Below, one piece after another: positions 6,165 to 49,986 of a stretch of 50,651 bases of DNA. Where the stretch lies: NCBI GenBank assembly GCA_013003715.1, contig JABDIN010000068.1, positions 1 through 50,651 on the forward strand, given 5' to 3'. This stretch comes from Desulfobacteraceae bacterium (GTDB taxonomy: Bacteria > Desulfobacterota > Desulfobacteria > Desulfobacterales > Desulfosarcinaceae). Both the position numbers and the translations under genes were made by a program. Position 1 is the stretch's first letter, and every line of letters starts with the position of its first letter. The notes beneath the pieces were generated by a model. The model searched no databases and was not told the origin of the DNA. It saw only the letters and a list, made by a program, of their open reading frames with translations.

Positions 6165-6416
6165 GGCGTGAATCTCTTTTTACGTATAGATAACCCTTAC
6201 TGCGGGTGACGTGAACACGATGAGGAGGCGACCACAGGAGGCGAAAATGAAACCAAGAAACGCAACGGTGTAGCACGCAAAATGAAAAGGTGCTGATATC
6301 CTAGCGGGTTTTGTAATCATAGGAGATACCTTCGGCCAATGCAACTCGTATTATTCATGGATCCCGTATGGTTGCCCGGAAAGGTTCTCCTTGTCAAACA
6401 TGCGAATACCCCGGCT

Positions 6417-6683
6417 CAGGGTGATCATATATATTCGGCATGGCTTCGGACACTTTAAAATATTGGTATGCGTTGATGCAAGGCACGGTTAAATTGTCAA
6501 ATGAGAAAATCCAAACGCCAACTGGCGGAATGGTGTCGTTTCATCCCCAGGTTTTTATCAAAGCGACCCTTAAAAAAGATAGAATACCTTCATTTGAAAT
6601 TCGAGCTTTGTCATTTGACATTACACTCCTTGTTTTCATCGGGCCCTATTTCAACCGTATCATGTTTACAAGCCTGAGCCCTG
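6417..6683 (+). repeat. palindromic MITE-like element, family 1, copy A (full length, diverged)
   Basis: A 267-bp non-coding element between divergent kinase genes. It begins CAGGGTGATC and ends with the inverse CCCTG. Inside are two long inverted arms: one near GTCAAATGAGAAAATCC (about 6495-6512), the other ending TTTGTCATTTGACATT (6607-6622), able to fold into a long hairpin. It aligns along its length with copies at 28502-28749 and 49801-49986. Of the 614-bp gene-free stretch 6165-6778, bases 6165-6416 hold no gene I can support. They include one strong AGGAGG (6236-6241) before an 8-codon open frame, which I do not call. Confidence 0.75.
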
Positions 6684-6778
6684 TAAGCCGGCTGGACCGG
6701 TGCCCAAGCCTTGAGAGTGCGGATAAAGTTTTGGTCTTATTCTCCCGATATCCACTATACACTTAAATTTTCCCGGTT

Positions 6779-28501: not shown

Positions 28502-28749
28502 CAGGGTGATCGCATGCAGATTTGGCGGGGCATCAGATACTTTAAATATGGTTCATGCGTTGATACAAGGTTCGGTTAAAATTTCAAATGGCGGAATGCT
28601 GTCGTTTTATCTTCACTTTATCTTTATAGTGGTCCTGTAAAATGGATAGCCTACCTTCATTTGGAATTTGAGTTTTGTCATTTGACATTATACCATCTGT
28701 TTTCACCGGACACGATTCCAACCGTACCATTTTCACATGCGTTACCCTG
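28502..28749 (+). repeat. palindromic MITE-like element, family 1, copy B
   Basis: A 248-bp non-coding element with inverted ends: CAGGGTGATCGCATG at the left, and CAGGGTAACGCATG when the right end is read on the minus strand. It contains the shared internal arm TTTTGTCATTTGACATT at 28673-28689; the opposite arm is partly deleted. Its right end is 11 bp from the stop of the DUF606 permease gene. Of the gene-free stretch 28198-28759, the part 28198-28501 shows nothing I can support. A 79-codon minus-strand frame there starts at TTG, has no ribosome site and matches nothing I recognise. Confidence 0.78.
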
Positions 28750-49599: not shown

Positions 49600-49800
49600 T
49601 ATCACCGGCCGGACCCGAACGAGGGTTACCGGCGCCTCCGGGCACCCCTGAAAGATATCACGGGTCTGAAACACCTGCCGCCAGGCGACGGAACCGTCAG
49701 CTTTTATCATCAGGACGGTATCATGAAGGACCACGTCAAAGTGTCGGTCAACGGATGTATAAATGATACGGTTGGAACAGCGCCATCGGAAGGCAGGTAA

Positions 49801-49986
49801 TGCCAAATGAAGGTATACTATCCATTTTAAGGCTCGCTTTGACGATAAAGTGAAGACAAAAACGACAGCATTCCTTCATTTGACATTTGGATTTTGTCAT
49901 TTGACATTATAACCGCACCTTGTATCAACGCACACCAATATTAAAAAGTATCCGCTGCCATGCCGAATCTACATGCGATCACCCTG
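49801..49986 (-). repeat. palindromic MITE-like element, family 1, copy C (truncated)
   Basis: Read on the minus strand it starts CAGGGTGATCGCATGTAG (from 49986), carries the full first arm AATGTCAAATGACAAAATCC (49889-49908) plus AAATGTCAAATGAAGG, then the loop, and stops just inside the second arm at ACCTTCATTTGGCA (49801). The terminal part seen in copies A and B is missing. Its first 18 bases overlap the 3' end of the thiamine-binding gene and encode its last five residues and stop. With 49600-49800 it makes up the gene-free stretch 49600-49968. Confidence 0.75.

Follow-up and report, generated by a model that had tools for sequence, protein, structure and literature searches.

Three copies of a hairpin-bearing repeat and their family in the genome

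The window, by which we mean the whole 50,651-nucleotide stretch of DNA analysed here, belongs to a 5.5-Mb Desulfobacterales assembly (97% complete, 115 contigs) and carries three copies of one repeat with a strong foldback (Table 1). Local alignment gives scores of 156 (A–B), 183 (A–C) and 146 (B–C), compared with best scores of 27, 29 and 31, respectively, from 500 shuffles per pair, and BLAST places the copies at 71–80% identity over 183–283 bp, so the three aligned copies reported in the initial annotation are real. Copies A and B start with CAGGGTGATC and end with CCCTG, the shared start and inverse end described there, and copy C lies on the opposite strand, a point that had gone unmentioned. 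The proposal that each copy has lost a different part stands for copy B, which lacks part of the 5′ hairpin arm, and for copy C, whose 3′ hairpin arm is short by about 26 bp. It does not stand for the 3′ end of copy C, which is present and reaches about position 49743 rather than 49801, although its tip has decayed, with GTCGG replacing CAGGG when read on the + strand. The graded likeness of the flanks from A to C would be in line with copies of differing age. The spacing of 21–22 kb, flagged earlier as perhaps due to chance, was given no weight and is uninformative because far more than three copies exist.

Table 1. Coordinates of the repeat copies and associated features in the window.
Feature	Position	Strand	Basis and remarks
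MITE copy A, full length, 267 bp	6417..6683	+	Flanks TACCCCGGCT / TAAGCCGGCT, alike at 8/10
Left 10-bp target duplication, copy A (TACCCCGGCT)	6407..6416		Flank comparison and class statistics
Right 10-bp target duplication, copy A (TAAGCCGGCT)	6684..6693		Flank comparison
Central hairpin, copy A (ATTGTCAAATGAG...TTGTCATTTGACATT)	6493..6622	+	Model positions 79–209; left limit ± a few bases
MITE copy B, 248 bp, 5′ hairpin arm partly lost	28502..28749	+	BLAST; flanks alike at 6/10
MITE copy C, 244 bp, inverted	49743..49986	-	Model positions 1–267 align; flanks alike at 2/10

Searches of the complete assembly revealed a large family. The end motif (≤2 mismatches) has 130 matches in the genome and 2 for a reversed control, and the arm motif has 144 matches and none in its control, a count to which a single full element can contribute twice. 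The genome-wide search with the 267-bp copy A that the initial annotation had proposed returned at least 40 distinct places (our count of 59 listed matches). In this search 40 of 154 first-look candidates were scored, and the match list is incomplete because copy B is missing from it. Among the best 30 end-motif matches obtained as loci, L048 and L055 have no family match, L054 and L056 begin in other sequence, and L031 has just its first 27 bases in common with the family. We estimate the family at about 60 to 130 copies.

A profile built from the copies yielded a consensus of 270 bp, as had also been proposed, and the 24 copies in the alignment, whether full or partial, are all laid out alike over 270 bp, spacers and hairpin included. 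The layout comprises an ISAs1-type end (CAGGGTGATCGCATGTAGA...), some 60 bp of spacer, a hairpin of roughly 130 bp whose arms are built from CAAATG words, some 45 bp of further spacer and a second end (...ACATGCGTTAGCCCTG); the terminal inverted repeats CAGGGTGATCGCATGT / ACATGCGTTAGCCCTG are imperfect. With its short consensus, many copies and absence of a transposase gene, the element has the features expected of a MITE. The tested open reading frame (ORF) overlapping copy A has no Pfam or NCBIfam match, and, judged by eye, no transposase is present among the ORFs listed for two lone end matches (L071 and L074) and one partial copy (L052). The GTDB contigs, which may not include the window's genome or its near relatives, contain no match to a 28-nt end pattern.

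Target duplications and ISAs1-type ends

Identity between the two flanks of 21 near-full copies rises to 0.54 at a length of 10, compared with 0.25 in the control, and remains near background (0.24–0.34) at lengths of 2–9 and 11–15. When the ends are anchored on CAGGG/CCCTG, 7 of these 21 copies have 10-bp flanks alike at 7 or more of 10 positions, two of them perfectly, whereas none of 420 mismatched control pairs reaches this level and 0 of 20,000 permutations attain the observed sum. This excess of 10-bp flank repeats argues for a non-autonomous transposon; the flanks below 7/10 in the other 14 copies we read as decay. A first test of ORF overlap, in which none of 46 elements and 602 of 860 random segments fell inside open frames, was biased because the element itself carries stops, and it was replaced by an analysis of joined flanks. 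Of the near-full copies, 19 have enough flank, and an open frame of at least 120 codons spans the join in 2 of these, so most of these sites look intergenic, the available baseline of 602 of 860 random segments inside such frames being a different measure.

ISAs1 elements are listed in ISfinder with CAGGG ends and repeats of 8–10 bp. Among 62 of 80 returned ISAs1 loci that we examined (the 18 omitted lie partly near contig ends), 54 have a candidate end pair, about nine of which are plainly spurious, and 42 of 62 have CAGGG at both ends by our count, in a search that permitted the starts CAGG, CAAG, TAGG, CGGG and CATG only. Duplications (at least d−1 of d bases) occur in 29 loci and measure 10 bp in 28 of these, several of these coming from copies of one IS in one genome, which are tallied separately. 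The element resembles this IS family (NF033564; PF13808 and PF01609) in its ends CAGGGYRATCGCATG and in its 10-bp target duplication; it differs in being about 270 bp long without a transposase gene and in residing in an assembly without an ISAs1 match.

The search of that assembly for an ISAs1 transposase (NF033564) found none, which extends to the whole assembly, for this family, the earlier remark that no transposase is nearby. An ISAs1 match at E ≤ 0.001 is present in 22 of the 97 genomes searched, with the window's own genome counted in the 97. Desulfatitalea sp. SH-MAG143 (G018), a member of the Desulfosarcinaceae, the bacterial family that also includes the window's genome, encodes an intact 369-amino-acid (aa) ISAs1 transposase on a contig of 3,648 bases (NF033564, 427 bits; PF13808 and PF01609). 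The ends of this IS, CAGGGCAATCGCATGTAGA and CAGGGCAATCGCAAGTAAC, are 1,345 bp apart, and the MITE left end CAGGGTGATCGCATGTAGA agrees at 17 of 19 bases with CAGGGCAATCGCATGTAGA, the end on the C-terminal side of the transposase; no duplication surrounds the IS on its contig (L287). A transposase gene with matching ends, which the initial annotation had suggested seeking, was therefore found outside the own genome.

Elements of the same class occur in a second genus, in the congeners G019 and G025, with many copies in the former and one full copy in the latter. They measure 227 bp and combine the ends CAGGGCAATCGCAAGTAAAATC / CAGGGCAATCGCATRTAGATTTC with different spacers and a central CAAATG hairpin. 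The 15 full copies in G019 are 88–98% identical, and 12 of them have 10-bp flanks alike at 8 or more positions, compared with none of 210 mismatched pairs. G019 also contains a C-terminal ISAs1 fragment with a similar end, CAGGGCAATCGTAAGTAAAATTT, as well as an ISAs1 element with a 388-codon frame, a perfect 10-bp repeat and ends (CAGGGTAACCGCATTTATAA) that are less alike. In G025 the interval that corresponds by synteny to one G019 copy is free of a MITE, a weak comparison in which the intergenic bases are unalignable. G025 also holds at least one more family of this type with different spacers, of which three copies were read. Among 20 further hairpin matches from the two genomes, 11 are flanked by ISAs1-type ends on both sides, 6 on one side and 3 on neither, with ends sought within 150 bp at ≤3 mismatches, which is permissive where a single end is concerned. 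Several MITE families of this bacterial family thus share the arrangement end, spacer, hairpin, spacer, end.

Other repeats accompany these copies in G019. Locus L076 (1438-1761) has a second foldback of about 97 bp inserted in the MITE loop, and its flanks keep the perfect 10-bp repeat ACGGTCGCTC. In L210 (3410-3564), another short element with CAGGGTAACCGCATTTGG at both ends and flanks alike at 8/10 by eye lies near the 388-codon ISAs1. The first 125 bp of L380 (G019:C1:5145349-5145473), an unrelated repeat beside a MITE copy, recur at 97–100% identity in at least 14 other places in G019.

We put at roughly 90% the probability that the three repeats in the window are worn copies of a non-autonomous, hairpin-carrying MITE with ISAs1-type ends that was moved in trans by an ISAs1-family transposase. 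Movement in trans of a MITE-like family, as suspected from the outset, gains support from the 10-bp duplications, from ISAs1 ends in the same bacterial family, from fresh copies in G019 and, weakly, from the MITE-free interval in G025; the partner transposase is deduced from other genera because the own assembly has none of the ISAs1 type. An ISAs1-family DDE transposase would bind both MITE ends in trans and insert the element through a 10-bp staggered cut, and may since have been lost from the lineage, or been left unassembled, while the copies decay. An autonomous element with such ends was found outside the window's genome, as the IS in G018, with a fragment in G019, and a partner in the same genome is not indispensable for a decayed family. 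If the copies were instead internal-deletion remnants of a full ISAs1 IS, rather than a MITE amplified as such, the same ends and duplication length would be expected, but we consider this very improbable: the 24 aligned copies share a single 270-bp layout, spacers and hairpin, and neither the ORF over copy A nor the genome at large has a match that would betray such an IS.

The central hairpin and an order-wide 22-nt core

Conservation is highest in the two hairpin arms (0.92 and 0.90), compared with 0.84 in the 5′ spacer and loop and 0.88 in the 3′ spacer, and a two-sided change has been kept in 2 of 32 predicted pairs. Conversion between the arms, or selection on sequence, fits this pattern better than selection on pairing, and pure post-insertion decay does not explain the higher conservation of the arms. 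A structured regulatory RNA or terminator held in place by selection, without any transposon, would account for the strong foldback, the intergenic sites and arms better conserved than spacers, but we give it very little credence: the kept two-sided changes are few and the target duplications denote insertion. No Rfam family reaches the gathering threshold in the window, 20 core loci (see below) give four matches, all to miRNA families and far below gathering, and a terminator scan of three copies (L003, A and C) found no terminator-like site. A promoter scan found three promoter-like sites in L003, where 1.2 are expected, and none in copies A or C, and an outward match to TTGACA-N16-TATCAA is common among 39 copies, which is only a hint because the copies are related.

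The hairpin also varies in orientation and in the pairing of its stem. In L038 (G000:C71:137672-137938) and L049 (G000:C9:19269-19508) the ends and spacers of the MITE enclose a central hairpin in reversed orientation, which is what recombination between its inverted arms would be expected to produce. Alignment columns 116–120 and 184–188, which face each other in the stem, mostly combine GAAGG with CCGCC or GGCGG with CCTTC; the perfectly paired GAAGG/CCTTC is rare there, and the same variant occurs on opposite arms.

The upper hairpin stem holds a 22-nt core, TAAAATCGATAGMATDCCTTCA, whose spread beyond the MITE hairpin had gone unnoticed. A search with the consensus matched 16 of 97 genomes (own included), elsewhere mostly through the hairpin. 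At ≤2 mismatches, 72 of the 291 genomes searched in the order, among them the window's own, contain the core, one of them as many as 38 times, and the reversed core pattern has 2 matches overall by our count. At ≤1 mismatch it is found in none of 378 same-phylum genomes outside the order (395 searched, from which 17 of the own genome or the same order were removed), a contrast between order and phylum that is indicative only, because the mismatch thresholds differ. ISAs1-type ends stand on both sides of the core in none of 53 loci from other taxonomic families, none of 22 in genus g3, 1 of 4 in g5 and 3 of 11 in the own genome. The end pattern used around the core (≤3 mismatches) is loose, with 138 matches in 112 kb, and one-sided end matches are consequently meaningless.

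The sequences beside the core differ by lineage, and among the loci listed they comprise the words TTTAGGAATT/AATTCCTAAA, GATTGATGATTGA, TTGAATATTGAA, AACTTAAAACTT and TAAAGTGTCTAAAG or the module TGTGGAATCGCTTCGCTCTGTC. Arm pairing in 90 core loci averages 21.5 within a locus and 15.4 across genomes, and 18 of the 90 exceed the 95th percentile of the cross-genome control, which includes genomes with the same words. Foldback around the core is not universal, since the left arm is absent or distant in G009 and G012. In G149 the element fills the gap between genes read as rpsE and rpmD, where its congener G113 has no element, and at a second ribosomal-protein site, read as rplN–rplX, it is present in three congeners with varying numbers of arm words (these gene names are our reading of the gene ends). 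The two comparisons indicate that core plus words is gained or lost and that arm length changes.

Some of the loci matched by the core or by the consensus have further features. In one taxonomic family of the order (G282, G176, G277, G196 and G254; for example, L138, L144, L188 and L193) a second conserved module, TTTGTGGAATCGCTTCGCTCTGTCTTTTT, often lies just before the core, and in L069 (G035:C579:5660-5807) a tandem array of words like CAAATCTCAAATGACAAATTCCAAATCCCAAATAAATCC, at about 39 bp per unit, runs up to the contig end. Core-adjacent ORFs were compared for 30 loci, and ORF matches link eight pairs of loci. The idea of a neighbour gene that recurs with the core was rejected: three of the eight pairs are stretches of 21–26 aa within the repeat, three are one ribosomal-protein region in congeners and one is weak (22% over 147 aa). 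The products of the eighth pair, L134 (G021) and L137 (G176), which come from different taxonomic families, match at 42% over 405 aa, by chance or through a common neighbourhood.

Least probable of all, and for the MITE largely refuted, is a REP/BIME-type origin with a REP-associated tyrosine transposase (RAYT, Y1_Tnp) as the mover, for although the palindromes are intergenic and high in copy number and Y1_Tnp genes are present in 20 of 20 genomes searched, the element has long ends and exact 10-bp duplications of a kind that Y1 transposition is not known to produce, and the core (≤4 mismatches) is found in 0 of 30 RAYT loci (≤1.5 kb per side, 88 kb in total). At the same threshold, the ISAs1 loci contain 1 core match in 81 kb.

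Returning to the ISAs1-type MITE, its hairpin is probably an older dispersed stem-loop that was acquired by the ISAs1-type MITEs of this bacterial family. From its wider spread we infer that the core is older than the MITE hairpin, and it may constitute a dispersed element in its own right that has so far gone undescribed. An ancestral ISAs1 MITE could have acquired the order-wide stem-loop, its descendants then retaining the ends and the hairpin as their spacers changed; alternatively, MITEs could have acquired the stem-loop more than once. A fuller proposal, which we offer tentatively and at less than even odds, takes the MITE hairpin as one form of a distinct stem-loop dispersed throughout the order. 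In this proposal an asymmetric 22-nt core (TAAAATYRATAGAATNCCTTCA) sits between inverted arms of lineage-specific words (CAAATG, TTTAGGAATT, GATTGATGATTGA, TTAAAACTTAAAA), and the stem-loop comes and goes between congeners, even within the ribosomal-protein operon, has arms whose length can differ at one and the same site, and has become part of several ISAs1-type MITE families. If this is true, the stem-loop would represent an undescribed class of mobile or templated structure that keeps core and foldback and leaves arm sequence free. A core kept across the order while arm words are replaced by lineage is hard to accommodate by ordinary transposition or by one RNA family, and this pattern opens to testing the question of which kind of element changes the sequence of its own stem.

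Comparison with known repeat systems

MITEs, and MITEs that ride on an IS transposase, are already known. Searches of the open-licence PMC literature, made without the letters of the core, turned up neither an ISAs1-derived MITE from this order nor a description of the 22-nt core. Our preferred reading would name the transposase family that mobilized an abundant bacterial MITE, although the partner itself seems to be missing from the host. In a sister genus copies of this MITE class still appear fresh, and there the partnership would be open to testing.

Correia, RUP, ERIC and similar bacterial MITEs (reviewed by Delihas, PMC2229807) are likewise short, non-autonomous, multi-copy and hairpin-forming. 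The element described here differs from these MITEs in that its parent family is ISAs1 and in that the core of its hairpin is found in the order independently of the element as well. The hupL MITE of Thiomargarita nelsonii is reported to have 10-bp direct repeats, 19-bp inverted repeats and hits on 260 of 439 contigs; its authors found no parent IS in ISfinder and suggest a PD-(D/E)XK origin (PMC4853749). In its repeats, its many hits and the missing parent IS it resembles our element in description, and the origin suggested by its authors sets it apart.

REP/BIME repeats, with their TnpA-REP proteins, are likewise dispersed extragenic palindromes (PMC2817692, PMC3733652 and PMC8266576), and REP elements are given as palindromes of 20–40 bp with a GTAG or CGTC tag (PMC3733652). 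At about 270 bp, with a hairpin of about 130 bp, the element lies outside this size range; unlike REP/BIME repeats, it has exact 10-bp duplications and its core is associated with none of the 30 RAYT loci examined. The arms of the core recall the TAACTGA repeats of Beggiatoaceae, which are short intergenic words found in ribosomal-protein operons among other sites (PMC4679880). Those repeats are mostly direct and made of one word (PMC4679880), whereas here many words stand beside a conserved 22-nt core, often in inverted orientation.
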